Assembly (NCBI GenBank): GCA_933228675.1
Contig: OW121743.1
Coordinates: forward strand, 110,727,468-110,791,467
Source of the DNA: Stomorhina lunata
Lineage: Eukaryota > Arthropoda > Insecta > Diptera > Rhiniidae
Length of the DNA stretch: 64,000 nt
Reading direction: 5' to 3'
In this document: piece by piece, positions 12,420 to 59,059 of the stretch
How the letters are laid out: every line of letters starts with the position of its first letter
How positions within the stretch are numbered: the first letter of the stretch is position 1
Program-made: the position numbers and the translations under genes
Notes under the pieces: model-generated
The model's database searches: none
What the model was told of the DNA's origin: nothing
Seen by the model: the letters and a program-made list of their open reading frames with translations, nothing else

Positions 12420-12850
12420 CTCTTCACCACCATAGGTGGAAAGGGTATTATAAGTTTATGCTGATGTATGTAACGCACATAAATATTTGTCTTAGACCCA
12501 TCTTTTAGTATACCAATAGGCTTAGAATCACTTTCTGAGTCGATTTAGCGATGTCCGTCCGTCCTTCTGGCTGGACGGCTGGCTGGCTGGACCCCCATGT
12601 AAACCTTGTAATCAAACTACAGGTCGCAATTCTAAAGATAATCTGATGAAATTTTTGATAATAGGACCATGGCTATTGAAATTCGTCAAAATCGGTCCAT
12701 TATTTATGGTACCTCCCATAGGTCCCACTTCCCGGATTTGATATATTGGCCACAAAAATTAATATTTTTTCATAAAATTTAAAACAAATACTGCTTATAT
12801 TAACTTAAATCACTGTACCAAATTTCAGTCAAAATTTGACCATAGCTCCC
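12420..12850 (+). repeat. Dispersed repeat, best preserved copy (CACCACCATAGGTGG family)
   Basis: Begins at the palindrome-like CACCACCATAGGTGG and continues through a GTCCGTCCGTCC / GGCTGGCTGG stretch, 'ctacaggtcgcaatt' and 'aaaatcggtccatt'. Related pieces occur at 100-870, 5970-6090, 13500-13910 and 40718-40735. Repeats of this look are common in calyptrate fly genomes (from memory, unverified). Non-coding. Confidence 0.6.
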
Positions 12851-27718: not shown

Positions 27719-30700
27719 ATGTCAAAAAGTGGTTTCGATTTTCCGAAACGTCCCCTATTTCCTTTGGATCCAAGCAGTACAACATCAGGAAGCAATGGCA
27801 CCAATACCATTATATCATATGGCACTTCAGCACCATATGCCACTACTTCGTTGGGAAACAACGGAGAGCAATCCACCGGTAAACGTATGTTTCTTTATGC
27901 CTCACGGTGTCTACGTGTTATACAACTAAACTGGAAAATTTTTACATCCGCCTTGGCCGTGACATTGTTAGCCATTATTTGGTATTATCCCGTCTTTTTC
28001 CTCTTCCTGCTATTCGTCATTTATTCTTTACTTTTAGTGGTGGCCGGTAAGTTTAATAATTATTTTCTGTTTTCCAAATACCTATTTATGTAAATGTTTT
28101 CAAATGTACACACGTCCGTCCAAGTGTAAATTAACGCCCTTTTTTGTAATACGAGGGCGGTCAGTAAATTTGTGACTTTTTTAATAAAACGCAGGATTTT
28201 TATATAAAACAGTTTATTTTTCTACATAGTCTCCTTTAGTTCTATATAATTAGTACAGGTTTTTCTAATTTTTGTTTATACTTTCCGAAAAATGTGATTG
28301 GTCGATGTCATCAAAATATGCATTTTTTGTGGGATAATTTGCTCGTTGAACCGCCGTGGTATAGCAGGTTAGTCATCCGCCTGGCATACCAGAGGTCCCA
28401 AGTTCGATCCCTGACCAGACCCACTTGAAAAAAATAAATTTTCAAAAAAAGCGGCGTTTTACTTCATAACTATTAGGCTACGTAAAACTTCTCTAACTAA
28501 TCGGATCGGATGCAGCTCATTGTCTGAGAGAAGTACCACTTGTTCGAATTGGAATGTCGTGGAAATTATTATTATTATTATTAATTTCCTTGTTGAAGTC
28601 AAATCTCTTTTCGACGAGCCGTATCTTGAAGTTTGGAATCAATTAATAGTCATTCGGGGCTTAATCTGGATAATATGGAGAATGAGGGAACAATTCGGCA
28701 TTAAAACTGCACATGTGTTAAAATTTACAGACTTATTGGCCCGGCCTCGTATATAATTTTGCTATGTTAGTATAATTATAAACAATTATGTGTTATGTTT
28801 TTTTTTGTTAAGTAATATGAGAGCTTTTTTAAATTTGTATAAAAATTGTTTATAAATTCTAATAAACATTTCCATTACTTAACAGAAAAAGGAAAAGGTT
28901 TTTTTTTAAGAAATCCAGTAAAAATACCGAGAGCCTAAATTCAAACAAATTAAGTTTTTGATTTAAAACATTTTCAACTCTTAAAAAAATTAAAAAAGAA
29001 ATACTAAAGTATTATCTTAAAGTCAATTTATTTTAAATAAATAAATTTAATTAATTTACTGGAAATTTCAGTCACATCTTATCAACATTAGCTAACTATA
29101 CATGAATTTTTAAATGGTTTATTTAATTAACGGATATTTCTGGAGACATATAGTTTTTGTAGCATTATTTATAAAAATTCTTTGTATATGCAATATACAA
29201 TATAAAAAATTTAAAGATATTAACAAAAAATTTTTGAATAAAATTTGTAGTTGTATTAAGTTAAATAAAACATAAACCGTGCCACATAAAAATTCTTAAA
29301 AAAACATAAATTTATTGAAAACTTTATAAATTGTTTTTTTTGAAATTTCCAATAAAGACAAATTGGAATTTTAACTTTAATTTATTATAAATTTATTATA
29401 AATAAACTTTTTAAATAAAACATGTGCTTTTATAAAAAAGTTAATTTATTTACTAACATACAGGTATGTGATGGATATCTATCGTTTTTAAATCGTTCGA
29501 TTTCAGATATATTTTTGAGGTAATTTTAGGTTATTTTTCCAAAAAATTCAAACCAAATGAAAGATAAAATATTAAATCCTTTCGACTGATATTTTATCTT
29601 TCATTTTGTTTCATTTTTTTGGAAAAATAACGGAATATTACCTCAAAAATATATCTTAAATCGAACGATTTGAAAACGATCGATTTCCATCACATACCTG
29701 ATAGCCTCCTTTTAGCTCTATACTCTAAGTCTTATGTTTCTCCATTTTTTCGATCCATTTTGAAAAACATGATTTGTAGAGGCTACCAAAATAGTCACTT
29801 TAGGCTAAATGTGGTCTTAATGTCGATTGTTATCCCTCTTTAAGATAGTCAATGTGGATTATATCACTTTCACCCCAAAAAATGACTTTATTGTTGACAA
29901 ACCCACCTTTGGACTACGATGTGTTGCGATGAATTAGTTACAGCAATCTCTTCTACTTTTAATCTCCGATAGGGTAAGACCGAAAATGTCAAAAGGTTGC
30001 GTAAGTGTTTGATTGTCAGCAAATGAGGCAGCCATCTTGTAGAAGGTATTCTCATTCCCAAAGGATCATTCAAAATTGCAACCACTGAGCCATGTAGGAT
30101 GCTCACAAATCTTTCAGTTTTAATCTTCCATCAGCTAAATCATATCCGATTTTTCCAACTGTTTGTAATGTACATTGTGCCACATCAAAACTCAGAATCC
30201 ACTTTTTACCTTGGAAATGGATGATACAGATTGACTATAAAATTGATCAAGCTTAGCCTTGTTCTGAACAAAATTCCCATTTTTCCACTTTTTCTTACAC
30301 CCTGAGGTAGTCTGCTATTAGGGGCCGCCAAACACAAACTAAATGAAGCATAATGCTCAACTTTAGACAGGAGTCATTTGATAGCTATATATTGACAGGG
30401 GCAGTATTGACATTTCAATAAGTAGATGGAAAATTTAAAAAGACACTGCCCTCGTATGATTAGCTTTTTTTTTATATTACTGCATGCTTTAGATGCAAAA
30501 ATAATCTGTAAAACTGTTTATGTTTATTGCAAAATTTTAAATTTTATTTATTTAATTTCAGCTGTGGCTGGTACTGTTTATATTCACTATCTTTTTACAA
30601 CAAAGGAACCACCAAAACCAAATCGTCAACCATTAAATGTTTTATACAATGCTACCAAGTAAGTATAATTTAAATAAAATACCCAGGAAATAATTAATAA

Positions 30701-44640: not shown

Positions 44641-45269
44641 TTTTAATGTTTAAAATTTTCAGTATAAACATTTTATGGAAAAATTTTTTCTATAAAATTT
44701 TTGTAGAATTTTTTTTTTTTTAATTTTTATAAACAAATTTTATAATAAAATTTTTTTTAGAATAATTTTCATTATAAAATTTTTTATAAAAAAATTTTAT
44801 TATAAAATTTTTTATAGAAAAATTTTATTATAAAATTTTTTATAGAAAAATTTTTATCGAAAAATTTTCATTATAAAATTTTTCATAGAAAAATTTTCAT
44901 TCTAAAATTTTTTAAAAAATTTTCATTATAAAATTTTTTTGTAGAAAATTTGTCGATATAAAGTTTTTATAGAAAAATTTTCATTATAAAATTTTTTAGA
45001 AAAAATTTTTGATTTATTGTTTTCTTATAAAAAAATGTTGGTATAAATTTTTTTATTAAAAATTTTTCATATACAATTTTTATAAAAAAAAAACTGTAAT
45101 TAATAAATTTTTATAGAAAAATTTTGGATACAAGCTTTTAATATCAAATTTTTATAAAAAAAAACTTCTCGTTATAAAATTTTTATAGAAAATTTTTAGA
45201 TAGAAACATTTTCATTATATTATTATCGATACAATTATTTTGTAAAAGTTTTTAATGTAAAATTTTTTT

Positions 45270-45941
45270 CAAAAAGAAGTGTATTTGCATTTGATCCCAA
45301 ACCTGTTACATTTATTTATTAATGTAACAGATCAATTTATTGATAAAAAGCCAAAAAATGTTTGCGGAGAAACCAAATTGATCTGTTGCATTAATAAATA
45401 AATGTAACAGGTTTGGGATCAAATGCAAATACACTTCTTTTTGAATAATATTTACATCCCGACTAATTTGTTATTTTTTGATAAAACTGCATGCATTCAG
45501 CTTATTTTTAAAATAAACTTGTTTATTTTAAAACATCTTACCCCCCCCCCTTCTTCACAGCATTCTGCATATAGTAGCCGACGGCTACAGCAAGAATGTG
45601 GGAAGTGAAGGTAGATGAAAACTGAAAAATGTTTGTTTTTGTTCAGTCGATAATCTACGCTTTTACTTTTGGTTTATGAACATAATTCTTAATAGTTATG
45701 TTCGTAAATTTAGTAATAATGCGAGGTTTTCGATCTGTCTAAATTGGGGATAATCCTCCTGAAGAGATGGCTTAACCAACCATCGAAACGCGTCGAGGAA
45801 TTTGGTTTCTCCGCAAACATTTTTTGGCTTTTTATCAATAAATTGATCTGTTACATTAATAAATAAATGTAACAGGTTTGGGATCAAATGCAAATACACT
45901 TCTTTTTGAATAATATTTACATCCCGACTAATTTGTTATTT
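45270..45941 (+). mobile_element. Non-coding retroelement with hammerhead ribozyme (Penelope-like or retrozyme-like)
   Basis: It is built from three copies of one about 100-bp segment. An inverted copy (45270-45379) is followed directly by a direct copy (45375-45474); a second direct copy is at 45840-45941. The two direct copies are almost identical (one difference, GTTGCATT against GTTACATT) and lie 465 bp apart. The inverted and first direct copies form a long hairpin with arms 45277-45339 and 45375-45437. A complete hammerhead lies just before the last copy. The interior has a C10 run (45541-45550) and an imperfect foldback. There is no reverse transcriptase frame. Paired pseudo-LTRs, an inverted 5' copy and a terminal hammerhead are known features of Penelope-like elements; small size without an ORF also fits animal retrozymes. 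Confidence 0.75.
45741..45803 (+). ncRNA. Type I hammerhead self-cleaving ribozyme
   Basis: All core positions are canonical. The core CTGAAGA is at 45759-45765. Stem II is GATGG (45766-45770) with CCATC (45780-45784) around a 9-nt loop. GAA plus A15.1 is at 45785-45788. Stem III is a minimal ACGCGT (45788-45793). The cleavage triplet is GTC (45792-45794), with predicted cut between 45794 and 45795. Stem I is CCTC (45755-45758) with GAGG (45795-45798), extended by AAATT (45741-45745) with AATTT (45799-45803) beyond a 9-nt one-sided loop. A palindromic, very short stem III is typical of hammerheads in Penelope-like elements, thought to work as dimers. Confidence 0.88.
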
Positions 45942-46400
45942 TATGTAAAATTTTTATACAAAAATTTTCTTATAAATTTTTTTATAGAAAAATTTTCATT
46001 ATAACATTTTATATTGAAAATTTTTCTATAAAAATTTTATATCGAAAATTTTCATTATAAATTTTTTTATAGAACAATTTTCGATATAATTTTTTTGTTA
46101 AACAAATTTTGGTATAAAATTTTGATTGAAAATTTTTCGATAAAAAATGGTTCCTTATTAAATTTTTCGATTTAAATTTTTAATATAAAATTTTGGTAGA
46201 AAAATTTTCAATGTGAAATTTTTATTATAAAACATTTTATAGAAAAATTTTTATTATAAAATTTTATATCGAATATTTCTCTAAAAAAATTGTATATCGA
46301 AAATTTAAAATTTTTTATAGAATAATTTTCGATACAATTTTTTTGTAAAACTAATTTTGATATAAAATTTTGATAGACAATTTTTCGATATAAAATTTTT

Positions 46401-47178
46401 ATAGAAAATTTTTCGATAATAAAGTTTTCCTTATAAAATTTTTCGATTTAAATTTGTAATATACAATTTTGATAGGAAATTTTTTTTTATAAAATTTTTA
46501 TTACAATTTTCGATACAATTTTTTTGTAAAACAAATTTTGATATAAAATTTTTATAAAAAATTTTTCCCTATAAAATTTTTCGATTTTTATTTTTATAGA
46601 AATATTTTCAATATAAAATTTTTAGAGACAAATTTTCAATATAAAATTTTTTATAGAAAAATATTCGATGTAAGATTATCATTTTTTTTATTGAAAATGT
46701 TACTAAAAAAATTGTATGTCAAACATTTTCATTATAAAATTTTATATCGAACATTTTTTATAGAACATTTTTTTCATTCTAAAATTTTTATAGAAAATTT
46801 TTCGATAATAAAGTTTTCCTTATAAAATTTTTCGATTTAAATTTGTAATATACAATTTTGATAGGAAATTTTTTTTTATAAAATTTTTATTACAATTTTC
46901 GATACAATTTTTTTGTAAAACAAATTTTGATATAAAATTTTTATAAAAAATTTTTCCCTATAAAATTTTTCGATTTTTATTTTTATAGAAAGATTTTCAA
47001 TATAAAATTTTAAGAGACAAATTTTCAATATAAAATTTTTTATAGAAAAATATTCGATGTAAGATTATCATTTTTTTATTGAAAATGTTACTAAAAAAAT
47101 TGTATGTCAAACATTTTCATTATAAAATTTTATATCGAACATTTTTTATAGAACATTTTTTTCATTCTAAAATTTTTT
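46401..47178. repeat. 389-bp tandem duplication inside the reverse satellite array
   Basis: The stretch starting ATAGAAAATTTTTCGATAAT at 46401 recurs at 46790 and stays nearly identical for the whole 389 bp, including rare words such as TTTTTCCCTATAAAA and GATGTAAGATTATC. Only a few substitutions and indels separate the copies. Confidence 0.85.
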
Positions 47179-50075: not shown

Positions 50076-53000
50076 TTACTTCTTGTCACTTTCCACACAG
50101 ACATCAAGGTAGTCATTGATAAGGCGCATGGCTTTGATAGGCAAAAATCGTCCAATCTTCTCGATGGTGGTGTAGTAACGAGGAATACTAGCCTCTACCA
50201 TCTCGGTGCGTTGAGCTGAAATTATGGAGGCAGCTGCTTCCTTGACATCAACCAATTTCATGAAGGGGAAACGGAATCTGGGATTCTTGCACAAACCAGT
50301 ATCTACCATGTAGGGGTAGATGGTGGTAAATTTGATCTGGTATATAAGAAATTTAATATGAAATAAGAGGGAATTTCGTTAAAAAAAAATATCAGAAAAA
50401 CTTACTTGTGTTTGAGGATTTTGTTTGTATAATTCTTCTTGTGTTGCTTGCATAAGACCACGTACTGCGAATTTAGTACCACAGTATGGCACCAAATTGG
50501 GCAAACCGAACAAGCCAGCACAGGAGGAAAGGGCAACAATATGACCTTGGTTACGTTCAATCATATCCGGCAAGAAAGCTTGGAGAATCTGTAAGTAGTA
50601 AAGTTTTTAAATTTTATAGAATTTTTGAGAAAAATGTATTAAAAACAGCAAAGAACTATGTAGTTATACAAGCATCTAAAATATTCCGATCGCAATGTTT
50701 TTAGCTTCTACAGATTCCGAAAAATAAGAATAAGAAGTTAGAGAAAACTAAGTCATTTGGTTCCTAAAGTGATCTCTATGGGACCACTGCAAGATATAGA
50801 CTAGAAAATAAAGATTTCTAGACTATTAATGATAAGAGCTGCACCGTTTAAAACGTATGGTTCATACTGTGCATTTTAAACTGCTAGTGTGTGTGCAAAC
50901 ATTTTTTTATAGAAAAATTTTCAAAATAAAATTTAAAAATGAAAAATTTTCTATAAAAATTTTATATTGAAATTTTTTTTTTTTTTATATAAATTTTATA
51001 TTGAATTTTTTTTATAAAAATTTTATATTGAAACTTTTTTTATAAAAATTTTACTATAAAAATTTTATACCAAAATTTGATTTACAAAAAAATTGTATCG
51101 AAAATTGTTCTATTTTATAAAATGAAAATTTTCGATTAAAAATTTTGTAACGAAACTTTTCGATACAAAATTTTATAATGAAAATGTTTGACATCAAATT
51201 TTTCGATAAAAAATTTTATATGAAAATTTTATTTTTATTTATTTTTTATAAAACATTTTAGAATGAAAATTTTCCTAGAAAAATTTTATAATGAAAATTT
51301 TCCGATAAAAATTTCATATCGAAAAATCAACATTTTATACCAGAATTTCTTTTTCACAAAAAAAAAAAAAAAAATGTATCGAAAATTTTCTATAAAATTT
51401 TCGATCTATAAAAAATTTTATAATTAAAATTTTCGATATAAAATTTTAGAACGAAAATGTTTGACATTCAATTTTTATAGTAACATTTTCGATAAAAAAT
51501 CTTTTATGAACATTTTATTTATTTTATATGAAAATTTTTCGATAAAAATTTTATATTGAAAATTTTTCTATAAAAATTTTATATTAAAAATTTTTCTATA
51601 AAAATTTGATATTAAAAATGTTTCTAAAAAAAATTTTATATTGAAAATTTTTCTATAAAAATTTTATGTTGAACATTTTTCTATAAAAATTTGATATTGA
51701 AAATTTTTCGATAAAAATTTTATATTGAAAATTTTACGATAAAAATTTTATATTGAAAATTAAAATTTTGTATCAAAAATGCTTCTATAAAAATTTTATG
51801 TTAAAAATTTTTCTATAAAAATTGTCGATGAAAATTTTATATCGAAAAACTTTATCAAAATTTTATACCAAAATTTGATTTACAAAAAAAAAAAATTGTA
51901 TCGAAAAATGTTCTATAAAAAATTTTTTAATGAAAATATTTGACATCAAATTTTTATAGTAACATTTTCGATAAAATATTTTGTATCAAAATGTTATTTT
52001 TAATTTATTTTTCTATAAAACATTTTATAATGAACATTTTACCATAAAAATTTTATATTGAAAATTTTACCATAAAAATTTTATATTAAAAAATTTTCTA
52101 TAAAAATTTTATATTGAAAATTTTTCTATAAAAATTTTATGTTGAAAATTTTTCTATAAAAATTTTATGTTGAAAATTTTTTTATAAACATTTTATATTG
52201 AAACTTTTACGATAAAAATTTTATATTGAAAAATTTTCTATAAAAATTTTATATTGAAAATTTTGCGATAAAAATTTTATATTGAAAATTTTGCGATAAA
52301 AATTTTATATTGAAAATTTTACGATAAAAATTTTATATTGAAAATTAAAATTTTGTATTAAAAATGCTTCTAAAAAATTTTATATTAAAAATATTATATT
52401 GAAAATTTTTCTATAAAAATTTTATATCGAAAAATTTTCTGTGCAAATTGTCCACCGAAAAATTGTCGATGAAAATTTTATATCGAAAAACTTTATCAAA
52501 ATTTTATACCAAAATTTGATTTACAAAAAAAAAAAATTGTATCGAAAAATGTTCTATAAAAAATTTTTAAATGAAAATAAAATTTTATAACGAAACTTTT
52601 CGATATAAAATTTTATAATGAAAATGTTTGACATCAAATTTTTATAGTAACATTTTCGATAAAATATTTTGTGTCTAAATGTTATTTTTAATTTATTTTT
52701 CTATAAAACATTTTATAATGAAAATTTTACCATAAAAATTTTATATTGAAAATTTTACCATAAAAATTTTATATTAAAAAATTATCTATAAAAATTTTAT
52801 ATTGAAAATTTTTCTATAAAAATTTTATGTTGAAAATTTTTCTATAAAAATTTTATATTGAAACTTTTTCGATAAAAATTTTATATTTAAAATTTTTGTA
52901 TAAAAATTTAATATTGAACATTTTTCTATAAAAATTTAATATTGAAAATTTTTCTATAAATATTTAATATTGAATATTTTTCTATAAAAATTTTATATTG

Positions 53001-56000
53001 ACAATTTTTCTATAAAAATTTAATATTGAAAATTTTTCTATAAAAATTTTATATTGAAAATTTTTCTATAAAAATTTTATATTGAAAATTTTGCGATAGA
53101 AATTTTATATTGAAAATTTTGCGATAAAAATTTTATATTGAAAATTTTTCGATAAAAATTTTATATTGAAAATTAAAATTTTGTATCAAAAATGTTTCTA
53201 TAAAAATTTTATATTGAAAATTTTTCTATAAAAATTTTATATCGAAAAATTTTCTGTGAAAGTTCTTCACCGAAAAATTGTCGATGAAAATTTTATATCG
53301 AAAAACATTTTATCAAAATTTTATACCAAAATTTGATTTACAAAAAAATTGTATCGAAAATTGTTCTATAAAAAAATTTTTAATGAAAATATTCGATTTC
53401 AAATTGTATAACGAAACTTTTCGATATAAAATTTTATAATGAAAATGTTTGACATCAAATTTTTATAGTAACATTTTCGATTAAAAATTTTGTATCAAAA
53501 TGTTTTTTTTTTAATTTATTTTTCTATAAAACATTTTATAATGAAAATTTTACCATAAAAATTTTATATTGAACATTTTTCTATAAAAATTTTATATTGA
53601 AAATTTTTCTATAAAAATTTTATATTGAAAATTTTTCTATAAAAATTTAATATTGAAAATTTTTCTATAAAAATTTAATATTGAAAATTTTTCTACAAAA
53701 ATTTTATAAAGAAAATTTTTCTATAAAAATTTTATAATGAAAATTTTTCTATAAAGATTTAATATTGAAAATTTTTCTATAAAAATTTTATATTGACAAT
53801 TTTTCTATTAAAATTTTATATTGAAAATTTTTGTATAAAAATTTTATAATGAAAATTTTTCTATAAAAATTGTATATTGAAAATTTTTCTATAAAAATTT
53901 TATATTGAAAATTTTTCTATAAAAATTTTATATTGAAAATTTTTCTATAAAAATTTTATATTGAAAATTTTTCTATAAAAATTTTATATTGACAATTTTT
54001 CTATTAAAATTTTATATTGAACATTTTTCTATAAAAATTTTATATTGACAATTTTTCTATTAAAATTTTATATTGAAAATTTTTGTATAAAAATTTTATA
54101 ATGAAAATTTTTCGATAAAAATTGTATATTGAAAATTTTTCTATAAAAATTTTATATTGAAAATTTTTCTATAAAAATTTTATATTGAAAATTTTTCTAT
54201 AAAAATTTTATATTGAAAATTTTTCTATAAAAATTTTATATTGAAAATTTTTCTATAAAAATTTTATATTGACAATTTTTCTATTAAAATTTTATAATGA
54301 AAATTTTTCTATAAAAATTTTATATTGAAAATTTTTGTATAAAAATTTTATAATGAAAATTTTTCTATAAAAATTTTATATTGAAAATTTTTCTATAAAA
54401 ATTTTATATTGAAAATTTTTCTATAAAAATTTTATATTGACAATTTTTCTATAAAAATTTTATATATAAAATTTTTCTTAAAAATTTAATATTGAAAATT
54501 TTTCTATAAAAATTTTATATTCAAATTTTTTCTATAAAAATTTTATATTAAAAATTTTTCTATAAAAACTTTATATTGAAAATTTTTCTATAAAAATTTT
54601 ATATTGAAAATTTTTCTATAAAAATTTTATATTGAAATTTTTTCTATAAAAATTTTATATTGACAATTTTTCTATAAAAATTTTATAAATTTCTTAAAAA
54701 TTTTTTTTTCTTAAAAATTTAATATTGAAAATTTTTCTATAAAAATTTAATATTCAAATTTTTTCTATAAAAATTTTATATTAAAAATTTTTCTATAAAA
54801 ACTTTATATTGAAAATTTTTCTATAAAAATTTTATATTGAAAATTTTTCTATAAAAATTTTATATTGAAATTTTTTCTATAAAAATTTTATATTGAAAAT
54901 TTTTCTATAAATATTTTATATTGAAAATTTTTCTATAAAAATTTTATATTGAAAATTGTTCTATAAAATTTTATATTCAACATTTTTTTATAAAAATTTT
55001 ATATTGAACATTTTTCTATAAATATTTTATATTGACAATTTTTCTATAAAAATTTTATATTGAAACTTTTTCGATAAAAATTTTATATTTAAAGTTTTTG
55101 TATAAAAATTTAATATTGAACATTTTTCTATAAAAATTTAATATTGAAAATTTTTCTATAAATATTTAATATTGAATATTTTTCTATAAAAATTTTATAT
55201 TGACAATTTTTCTATAAAAATTTTATATTGAAAATTTTGCGATAGAAATTTTATATTGAAAATTTTGCGATAAAAATTTTATATTGAAAATTTTTCGATA
55301 AAAATTTTATATTGAAAATTAAAATTTTGTATCAAAAATGTTTCTATAAAAATTTTATATTGAAAATTTTTCTATAAAAATTTTATATCGAAAAATTTTC
55401 TGTGAAAGTTGTTCACCGAAAAATTGTCGATGAAAATTTTATATCGAAAAACATTTTATCAAAATTTTATACCAAAATTTGATTTACAAAAAAATTGTAT
55501 CGAAAATTGTTCTATAAAAAAATTTTTAATGAAAATATTCGATTTCAAATTGTATAACGAAACTTTTCGATATAAAATTTTATAATGAAAATGTTTGACA
55601 TCAAATTTTTATAGTAACATTTTCGATTAAAAATTTTGTATCAAAATGTTTTTTTTTAATTTATTTTTCTATAAAACATTTTATAATGAAAATTTTACCA
55701 TAAAAATTTTATATTGAACATTTTTCTATAAAAATTTTATATTGAAAATTTTTCTATAAAAATTTTATATTGAAAATTTTTCTATAAAAATTTAATATTG
55801 AAAATTTTTCTATAAAAATTTAATATTGAAAATTTTTCTATAAAAATTTTATAAAGAAAATTTTTCTATAAAAATTTTATAATGAAAATTTTTCTATAAA
55901 GATTTAATATTGAAAATTTTTCTATAAAAATTTTATATTGACAATTTTTCTATTAAAATTTTATATTGAAAATTTTTGTATAAAAATTTTATAATGAAAA

Positions 56001-58668
56001 TTTTTCTATAAAAATTGTATATTGAAAATTTTTCTATAAAAATTTTATATTGAAAATTTTTCTATAAAAATTTTATATTGAAAATTTTTCTATAAAGATT
56101 TAATATTGAAAATTTTTCTATAAAAATTTTATATTGACAATTTTTCTATTAAAATTTTATATTGAAAATTTTTGTATAAAAATTTTATAATGAAAATTTT
56201 TCTATAAAAATTTTATATTGAAAATTTTTGTATAAAAATTTTATAATGAAAATTTTTCTATAAAAATTGTATATTGAAAATTTTTCTATAAAAATTTTAT
56301 ATTGAAAGTTTTTCTATAAAAATTTTATATTGAAAATTTTTCTATAAAAATTTTATATTGACAATTTTTCTATTAAAATTTTATATTGAAAATTTTTGTA
56401 TAAAAATTTTGTAATGAAAATTTTTCTATAAAAATTGTATATTGAAAATTTTTCTATAAAAATTTTATATTGAAAATTTTTCTATAAAAATTTTATATTG
56501 AAAATTTTTCTATAAAAATTTTATATTGACAATTTTTCTATTAAAATTTTATATTGAAAATTTTTGTATAAAAATTTTATAATGAAAATTTTTCTATAAA
56601 AATTGTATATTGAAAATTTTTCTATAAAAATTTTATATTGAAAATTTTTCTATAAAAATTTTATATTGAAAATTTTTCTATAAAAATTTTATATTGACAA
56701 TTTTTCTATTAAAATTTTATATTGAAAATTTTTGTATAAAAATTTTATAAAAAATTAATTTTATAAAAATTTTATATTGAAAATTTTTCTATAAAAATTT
56801 TATATTGACAATTTTTCTATTAAAATTTTATATTGAAAATTTTTGTATAAAAATTTTGTAATGAAAATTTTTCTATAAAAATTGTATATTGAAAATTTTT
56901 CTATAAAAATTTTATATTGAAAATTTTTCTATAAAAATTTTATATTGAAAATTTTTCTATAAAAATTTTATATTGACAATTTTTCTATTAAAATTTTATA
57001 TTGAAAATTTTTGTATAAAAATTTTATAATGAAAATTTTTCTATAAAAATTGTATATTGAAAATTTTTCTATAAAAATTTTATATTGAAAATTTTTCTAT
57101 AAAAATTTTATATTGAAAATTTTTCTATAAAAATTTTATATTGAAAATTTTTGTATAAAAGTTTTATATTAAAAATTTTTCTATACAAATTTTATATTTA
57201 AAATTTTTCTATAAAAATTTAATATTGAACATTTTTCTATAAAAATTTAATATTGAAAATTTTTCTATAAATATTTAATATTGAATATTTTTCTATAAAA
57301 ATTTTATATTGACAATTTTTCTATAAAAATTTAATATTGAAAATTTTTCTATAAAAATTTTATATTGACAATTTTTCTATAAAAATTTAATATTGAAAAT
57401 TTTTCTATAAAAATTTAATATTGAATATATTTCTATAAAAATTTAATATTGAAAATTTTTCTATAAATATTTAATATTGAATATTTTTCTATAAAAATTT
57501 TATATTGACAATTTTTCTATAAAAATTTAATATTGAAAATTTTTCTATAAAAATTTAATATTGAATATATTTCTATAAAAATTTTATATTGAAAATTTTT
57601 CTATAAAAATTTTATATTGAAAATTTTTCTATAAAAATTTTATAATGAAAATTTTTCTATAAAAATTGTATATTTAAAATTTTTCTATAAAAATTTAATA
57701 TTGAACATTTTTCTATAAAAATTTAATATTGAAAATTTTTCTATAAATATTTAATATTGAATATTTTTCTATAAAAATTTTATATTGACAATTTTTCTAT
57801 AAAAATTTAATATTGAAAATTTTTCTATAAAAATTTAATATTGAATATATTTCTATAAAAATTTTATATTGAAAATTTTTCTATAAAAATTTTATATTGA
57901 AAATTTTTCTATAAAAATTTAATATTGAAAATTTTTCTATAAAAGTTTTATATTGAAAATTTTTCTATAAAAATTTTATATTGAAAGTTTTTCTATAAAA
58001 ATTTTATATTGAAAATTTTTCTATAAAAATTTATATTGAAAATTTTTCTATAAAAATTTATATTGAAAATTTTTCTTTAAAAATTTGATATCGAAAAATT
58101 TTTATCAATAAATAATAATAGTTACTCACCCAGAAATGAGCTAAAACATTGACATCATACATCAGTCTAATTTCTTGTTCAGTGTGTTCAATCAAGGGAT
58201 GGCAGGGCATTATACCAGCATTGTTAACAATAACGCCAATAAAACCATGTTCTTTCTTAACCTTCTCAATCAAGGCCAAAACTTCTTCGCGGCTGGTGAC
58301 ATTGCAGCTATTTTTAAAAATAACAAATATTTGTTAAAAAAAAAAATTAAATCCATTCCAAAATTCCTCAAAGTCTTTCAAACTTACGTATAAGCAAAAG
58401 CTACACCACCAGCTTGTTTGATTTCCTTAACGGTTTGACTATTATTTTTTTCATTGATGTCAACGCAAATGATTTTAGCTCCCAATGCCGAGTACTGCAA
58501 AGCCAATTGTTTACCAATACCGTGACCGGTGCCAGTGATGAAAACAAACTCTCCTTTGACGTTTATTTCATCTTTGTGCAGAAAAGATTTTATCACAGAT
58601 TCCGCAATAGTAAACCAGAATTTAACGTGTAAAACAATGAATTCGATTACCATTTGTACAATGGCCAT
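50076..58668 (-). CDS. Short-chain dehydrogenase/reductase, SDR16C type (membrane-anchored)
   Basis: NAD(P)-dependent oxidoreductase related to retinol dehydrogenase 10 / 17-beta-HSD 11/13, probably on ER or lipid-droplet membranes; substrate unknown. Exons (minus): 58668-58388, 58307-58130, 50588-50406 and 50336-50076 (281+178+183+261 nt = 300 aa, normal for the family). The start is MAIVQMVIEF; an acceptor upstream (TTTTCAG near 58686) shows the codons before it are 5' UTR. Residues 1-30 are a hydrophobic anchor. The Rossmann motif is TGTGHGIGK, then VNNAGI. The catalytic set is Ser in SSCAG, with YCGTK giving Tyr-x-x-x-Lys. The intron at 50589-58129 is almost entirely satellite, yet the exons are intact and in phase. 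Confidence 0.93.
50895..58090 (+). repeat. 7.2-kb AT satellite array, 28-bp unit 'forward', in the SDR intron
   Basis: The unit is 28 bp, built from two 14-bp halves, TTTTATATTGAAAA and TTTTTCTATAAAAA, at roughly 250 unit lengths. Variants at the core (TATATTGAC, TCTATT, TGCGAT, TCGATA) recur in patterned groups. A distinct block containing ACCAAAATTTGATTTAC, ATTTGACATC and TAGTAACATTTTCGAT punctuates the array at about 51.07, 51.87, 52.51, 53.33 and 55.47 kb, giving a higher-order structure. It is the same family as the reverse array at 44.6-49.4 kb. Confidence 0.92.
52861..56030. repeat. About 2.2-kb segmental duplication within the forward array
   Basis: The block beginning AAACTTTTTCGATAAAAA at about 52861 recurs at about 55062, with the same order of rare variants (TTTGTATAAAAATTTAATAT, TGCGATAGAAATT, CTGTGAAAGTT, then ACCGAAAAATTGTCG). 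The second copy lacks roughly 60 bp. The offset is near 2.2 kb, so this is one recent unequal-exchange or amplification event. Confidence 0.8.
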
Positions 58669-58719
58669 ATAGTCTAGAGAGGGTCTGAAAAGAAAATTTA
58701 CATTTATGATATAATTCAA

Positions 58720-59059
58720 ATTGCAATTAAAATCAAATTAATCTAATGTGTGAAATATTAAAACGGGTTTAACTTGGTCATGAATTTTTATATTATTTAA
58801 ATATGAAGGAAATAGAGTATTAAGTTTCAATACTTGTTTTCTTAAGCTTGGCTGCAGATGTTGTTTATTGAAAATTCTAACCTTAATCAATGTTAAATTT
58901 AATAGATTTGTGAACTTGACTTGAAATACATACTTTTTATATATAATATAGTAAAAACGATTTTGTAGCGAATTGTAAACATTTCTTTTAAACAGTTAAG
59001 AAAGTACTATAGACAGGCTTGAACACACACTAGGGATTCCCGAAAAAATAAAATTTTAC
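58720..59059. other. SDR gene upstream region
   Basis: AT-rich flank holding 5' UTR intron sequence and presumably part of the SDR promoter. No motif was recognised with confidence. Confidence 0.4.

Follow-up and report, generated by a model that had tools for sequence, protein, structure and literature searches.

A minimal hammerhead motif of probable Penelope type within a 675-bp insertion in the fly Stomorhina lunata

What is a hammerhead motif doing between two AT-rich tandem arrays in the genome of a fly? The locus lies in Stomorhina lunata (contig OW121743.1), in a stretch of 64,000 nucleotides that we analysed as a whole and call the window. An earlier note on this DNA had read a complete hammerhead ribozyme at 45741-45803, on the forward strand, as part of a satellite array. 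We find that the motif is real, that the satellite setting is wrong and that the kind of motif is already known.

The motif, its folding and its score

The hammerhead consensus CUGANGA ... GAAA ... UH, with its standard numbering, agrees with the Rfam alignment of this site. The motif, of type I layout, was examined by core and stem inspection, Rfam alignment, a descriptor and folding, and the conserved type I core is present within 45741-45803 (+). The first core segment, CUGAAGA (CTGAAGA in the DNA, C3 to A9), occupies 45759-45765. It is followed by stem II with its 9-nt loop (45766-45784), a perfect 5-bp helix of GAUGG (45766-45770) with CCAUC (45780-45784), inside which an ATG is found at 45767-45769. 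The segment 45785-45794 then holds GAAA (45785-45788, that is G12 to A14 and A15.1), the palindromic helix III ACGCGU (45788-45793) and C17. The U and C of a GUC triplet stand at 45793-45794, directly ahead of the predicted cut. Folding pairs the 5' strand of stem I, UCCUC (45754-45758), with its 3' strand, GAGGA (45795-45799), again as a perfect 5-bp helix. All conserved core positions and the GUC triplet are thus where the earlier note had put them; stem II begins with the canonical G10.1-C11.1 pair, and the core together with GUC leads to the same predicted cut, 45794/45795. As a motif, then, the hammerhead is genuine, with its core, its GUC triplet and both 5-bp helices in place, and self-cleavage is its predicted property.

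Helix III behaves differently from the two other stems. Made of a loopless ACGCGT, it is limited in the monomer to one A-U pair around CGCG, and adding this pair costs energy (-4.7 vs -10.2 kcal/mol). The 63-nt monomer has a z of +0.60, with 143 of 200 shuffles folding at least as well, and its pairing probabilities are about 0.3 for stem I, about 0.47 for stem II and about 0.5 for an alternative helix. A one-sided stem I loop had been described; the outer AAAU/AUUU pairs that would form it have pairing probabilities of 0.02-0.04, and we do not retain it. When two copies are folded together, a double hammerhead appears through a 6-bp ACGCGU helix at -28.9 kcal/mol, a value set against separate monomers (2 x -10.6 = -21.2 kcal/mol) and not against shuffled dimers. 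Hence, where three matched stems had been claimed, stems I and II hold as perfect helices, and helix III comes down to one A-U pair that is stable only between two copies. In this folding model the co-fold supports the earlier suggestion that the ribozyme belongs to a retroelement and acts as a dimer.

The Rfam model RF00163 (Hammerhead_1) aligns over its full length with 45753-45800 (+), at 23.1 bits (E 5.3e-4 in a search of 76 bases). The gathering score of this family is 34, and the above-threshold covariance-model hit that had been proposed as a check is therefore missing. Because of this score we speak of a hammerhead-type motif, like the small hammerheads of Penelope elements. At the gathering threshold, the whole window contained no hammerhead, a tRNA being the sole Rfam match. 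A search of 1,500 bases up to E 10 gave 12 matches with no hammerhead among them; they were mostly microRNA families on the inverted repeat, each under its own family cut-off. The hammerhead alignment surfaced only with the 76-base input, probably owing to laxer filters.

A 675-bp insertion of Penelope-type anatomy

The hammerhead sits in an insertion of 675 bp (45268-45942). Its left part is an inverted arm (45268-45379, minus strand), which is the reverse complement of 45799-45910 at 112 of 112 positions. The arm overlaps by 5 nt, AAATT, with a partial direct copy (45375-45477, +) of 45840-45942, identical at 102 of 103 positions. The complete unit, which carries the hammerhead, follows at 45478-45942 (+) and is 465 nt long according to the start-to-start spacing of the direct copies. 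Partial copy and unit form an unbroken 568-nt stretch of 465-nt periodicity, or 1.22 units, and the last 32 nt (45911-45942), hereafter the tail, occur in both direct copies and not in the inverted arm. Since the two remaining copies end at the equivalent of 45799 and at 45840, the insertion contains a single hammerhead, and the locus alone could not produce a dimer in cis. The inverted arm stops at 45799, 4 nt short of the predicted cleaved end at 45795. As its internal copies are nearly identical, the insertion seems to be young.

A 13-bp direct repeat, ATGTAAAATTTTT, adjoins the insertion on the left (45255-45267) and, as an exact match, on the right (45943-45955). On this strand of the window it is found only at these two flanks, and once on the other strand. 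In anchored comparisons over 13 nt that allowed 1 nt of freedom, the true left flank matched 4 of 12,835 satellite positions and the true right flank also 4 of 12,835, but matches over at least 13 nt were also reached by 535 and 399 of 20,000 satellite pairs drawn at random. An unanchored test was weaker, with 276 of 3,000 such pairs sharing at least 13 nt. Judged from its sequence and position, the repeat is likely, if unproven, to be a target-site duplication.

We derived this repeat anatomy ahead of the comparison with the Penelope literature; the ATG and the 32-nt offset were sought after it. Direct copies of the pseudo-LTR type with an overlapping inverted copy on the 5' side are also the arrangement of Penelope-like insertions, and the 32-nt offset between copy ends falls within the range of about 30-40 bp expected of the optional tail. 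For example, Pen2a_Av of Adineta vaga has an ORF between two direct pseudo-LTRs and an adjacent, overlapping inverted pseudo-LTR, its target duplication measuring 9 bp and its optional tail 31 bp (PMC3846280). The present locus resembles it in having two direct copies with an inverted one overlapping, a tail of nearly the same length (31 bp vs 32 nt) and flanking repeats that are a candidate target duplication. Unlike Pen2a_Av, it has no reverse transcriptase/endonuclease ORF between the direct copies, and its first direct copy is a fragment without the hammerhead.

The Anolis element PAc allows a second comparison. PAc cleaves and extends both target strands, prefers AT-rich DNA and uses two internal priming sites, the interval between them being the tail; its ORF starts at hammerhead stem II, with the cut 26 bp downstream of the start codon (PMC11167929). 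Similarly, the ATG at 45767 lies at stem II with the predicted cut 25 nt beyond the codon, the target is AT-rich and the copy ends differ by 32 nt. In contrast, PAc is primed 111-118 bp into its ORF, at an AC-rich stem-loop and alike on both strands (PMC11167929), whereas here, counted from the ATG, the copies end near nt 144 and nt 176, with a tail that is not rich in AC and a different end on each side. As for the small Penelope hammerheads (Lunse et al. 2017), the motif resembles them in being type I, with almost no helix III, palindromic and suited to dimers; it departs from them in that its ATG GCT TAA opens no frame and in that the insertion has one hammerhead. Altogether, the earlier idea of a retroelement is supported, and in place of a satellite unit we find a single insertion with Penelope-type anatomy.

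A non-coding unit and its possible origin

Autonomous Penelope elements would carry a frame for reverse transcriptase plus GIY-YIG, running from the hammerhead, and this frame is absent here. The ATG at 45767 is followed by GCT and TAA, and between the ATG and 45910 stops occur in all frames (45773, 45839, 45857 and 45860 in one; 45864 and 45870 in another; 45844 and 45907 in the third). By the copy identities, every frame has at least one stop common to all three copies. A Pfam search with the three plus-strand read-through frames of the 465-nt unit gave no match. Stops in all frames and the lack of a Pfam match mean that no autonomous Penelope reading frame begins at the ATG.

A non-coding tandem unit with a type I hammerhead is what is expected of a retrozyme. 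Metazoan retrozymes are repeats of 150-450 bp with a GC content below 50% and target duplications above 4 bp, and retrozyme-like repeats occur in insects (PMC7229834). The present unit is likewise non-coding, a few hundred nucleotides long and tandem (465 nt, 1.22 copies, one hammerhead only), low in GC and flanked by a repeat longer than 4 bp; it is slightly longer than these elements (465 vs about 150-450 nt). Its helix III is weaker than that of most invertebrate retrozymes and closer to that of axolotl HHR_Amex1, a single pair capped by a palindromic tetraloop. The vertebrate hammerhead motifs require dimers for higher rates (PMC7229834).

With moderate confidence, we therefore favour the view that the insertion is a small non-coding retroelement of 465-nt period with a Penelope-type hammerhead, recently inserted by a Penelope-like reverse transcriptase and endonuclease acting in trans. 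In the sequence itself, this view is backed by the hammerhead, by the arrangement of inverted arm and partial copy, by the 32-nt offset between copy ends, by the 13-bp repeat on both flanks and by the lack of a reading frame. On the other hand, the element is present as a single copy within the window, and one 465-nt unit cannot prove a fixed unit; a longer Penelope copy could by chance have been truncated on its 5' side at 45478.

This leads to the main alternative, which is possible but in our view less likely, namely that an autonomous Penelope-like element of the ordinary kind left a short copy here, truncated at its 5' end or deleted internally, in which case the 465 nt would be its pseudo-LTR plus tail and the hammerhead its own. 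The insertion anatomy fits such a remnant equally well, the ATG stands at stem II as in PAc (PMC11167929), 5' truncation and partial tandems are usual in Penelope-like elements (PMC8969392), and the 465 nt may be largely untranslated sequence. However, in Pen2a_Av translation of the pseudo-LTR plus tail yields the opening 12-22 residues of the ORF, and PAc is primed within its ORF, whereas here each of the three frames from the ATG to 45910 is closed by stop codons even though the copies are nearly identical, and none of the plus-strand frames is recognised by Pfam.

The satellite surroundings and the chance of a fortuitous match

From about 40.8 kb on, the window contains extensive AT-rich tandem repeats, whose periods are near 14-15 and 28-32. 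At E 1e-3, the insertion matches nothing in the window except its own internal repeats, so the placement of the hammerhead inside a satellite array had to be given up. Hammerhead-like motifs do have an insect precedent in satellite DNA, pDo500 of Dolichopoda (PMC2808323), and the motif does lie among AT-rich tandem repeats; yet the insertion interrupts these repeats, shares no sequence with them at that threshold and is flanked by the 13-bp repeat. A satellite-type tandem repeat with hammerheads, in the manner of newts or cave crickets, fixed in the local array, is thus very improbable.

The surrounding repeats also served as folding controls. The 465-nt unit folded with a z of -7.7 as a circle (100 shuffles; unit taken as 45476-45940) and of -6.7 as a linear molecule (45478-45942, 40 shuffles). 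Twelve satellite controls ranged from -3.44 to -8.23, one of them being stronger than the unit, and 23 of the 24 gene-side controls were at -2.18 or above, the last one, over a hairpin, reaching -18.15. As the neighbouring satellite folds in a similar range, strong folding does not set the unit apart, and we dropped fold strength as evidence for a retrozyme.

Several other features of the window were recorded. Within the unit, 5' of the hammerhead, further hairpins are found at 45574-45588 (GTAGCCGACGGCTAC) and at 45673-45708 (a 15-bp stem with a 6-nt loop). Another hairpin, at 29461-29700, is near perfect, with 112-nt inverted arms that are 91% complementary and 16 nt apart; the 465-nt stretch from 29268 has a z of -18.15 against 40 shuffles, and the hairpin is possibly a small inverted-repeat transposon. 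At 46391-47177 a 389-bp AT-rich repeat unit is duplicated in tandem with a 99% match; either the duplication is, as it seems, much younger than the surrounding degenerate short periods, or it was produced by the assembly. Two short-chain dehydrogenase frames identified by Pfam (50076-58737, minus strand) lie on either side of a 7-kb AT-rich array at 50.9-58.1 kb, which therefore appears to fill an intron. The window also encodes S-adenosylhomocysteine hydrolase, SF3B1, Gar1 and a bile-acid symporter family protein, as well as an APC1 exon, for which the best-ranked named relative, a Rhagoletis zephyria protein, shows 83% identity over 75% of the query and the highest match overall, an unnamed protein, 93%, both among the 120 of 209 matches listed.

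Could the hammerhead be fortuitous? Our descriptors were composed after the motif had been seen. The strict one required the core, stems of no fewer than 4 bp where wobbles were allowed or of 5 bp where they were not, a G-C pair at the base of stem II and a complementary helix III. On both strands of the window it gave a single match, the 45741-45803 site, and in 60 Mb of one-strand, order-2 Markov sequence it gave none under each of three composition models. For a post hoc descriptor, one match in the window against none in simulated sequence makes a chance match unlikely, in line with the earlier note. A looser descriptor with 3-bp stems gave a weak hammerhead-like match at 12643 (+), which is most likely due to chance. 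The exact hammerhead pattern had no match in viral contigs or prokaryote genomes, nor a 24-nt stretch of the insertion in viral contigs, sets in which fly DNA is not expected. We give little credence to a chance or dead resemblance within a transposon of another kind, for which the Rfam score under threshold and a monomer that folds no better than shuffles may be cited, in view of the simulated sequence empty of matches under every model, the full-length Rfam alignment with every core position, and a Penelope anatomy, where such hammerheads are expected.

Nor is the motif isolated among flies. Hammerheads had been thought sparsely described in Diptera; type III motifs are already in print for four of them, Drosophila pseudoobscura, the house fly, Rhagoletis and the soldier fly (PMC7936874). 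These are likewise fly-genome motifs, of another circular permutation than the type I motif found here. No title among the listed literature matches reported a type I hammerhead in a fly, a weak negative since most subscription papers are outside the coverage, and also because insect retrozyme-like repeats (PMC7229834) and a universal Penelope motif (PMC6155905) are on record. Indeed, Penelope was first discovered in Drosophila virilis (PMC3846280), and all available Penelope-like sequences carry the hammerhead motif (PMC6155905); a type I hammerhead in a fly is therefore implied in print.

How the insertion may have formed and what it would mean

If the insertion is a small non-coding retroelement moved in trans, its formation could be pictured as follows. 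Transcripts with at least two units would cut themselves as two hammerheads join through ACGCGU, and copying of the 465-nt products, in circular or multimeric form, would account for the uninterrupted 1.22 units; the 568-nt stretch could equally stem from a template jump from one linear RNA to another. The endonuclease would open both target strands in AT-rich DNA, reverse transcription would start at two internal sites about 32 nt apart, one per side in this case, and the two cDNAs would be joined through the AAATT microhomology. The short cDNA of the inverted arm comes to within 4 nt of the predicted cut, which is what a hammerhead-cleaved template would yield but, for a single event, is only suggestive; the hammerhead of the 568-nt stretch would have been intact in its template.

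Several observations weigh against this scenario. The priming position, the AC content and the asymmetry of the two sides are unlike those of PAc. Moreover, the PAc hammerhead was cleaved only with added protein, its mutants still inserted in vitro, and no reads ended at the cut site (PMC11167929). The Rfam score is below threshold, the satellite nearby spans z values that include the -6.7 of the unit, and the flanking repeat may be a chance match, given the 535 and 399 pairs mentioned above.

Which enzyme moves the non-coding hammerhead elements of animals has been left open; Penelope-like elements were proposed as the movers of retrozymes because both bear type I hammerheads, form tandem copies and occur together (PMC7229834, PMC7761336), and what the small hammerheads of Penelope elements do has been termed a mystery (PMC7761336). 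What makes the present locus most interesting is that a non-coding hammerhead unit bears the scar of a Penelope-type insertion. We tentatively suggest, while holding it to be far from established, that the locus may be direct structural evidence of an animal retrozyme moved by Penelope machinery, and that the inverted arm may be an in vivo trace of a ribozyme-cleaved template. A nearly undiverged fly insertion with clear ends provides a testable case, in which the ends, the junctions and the cut site predict what other copies in the genome and the ends of the RNAs should look like.
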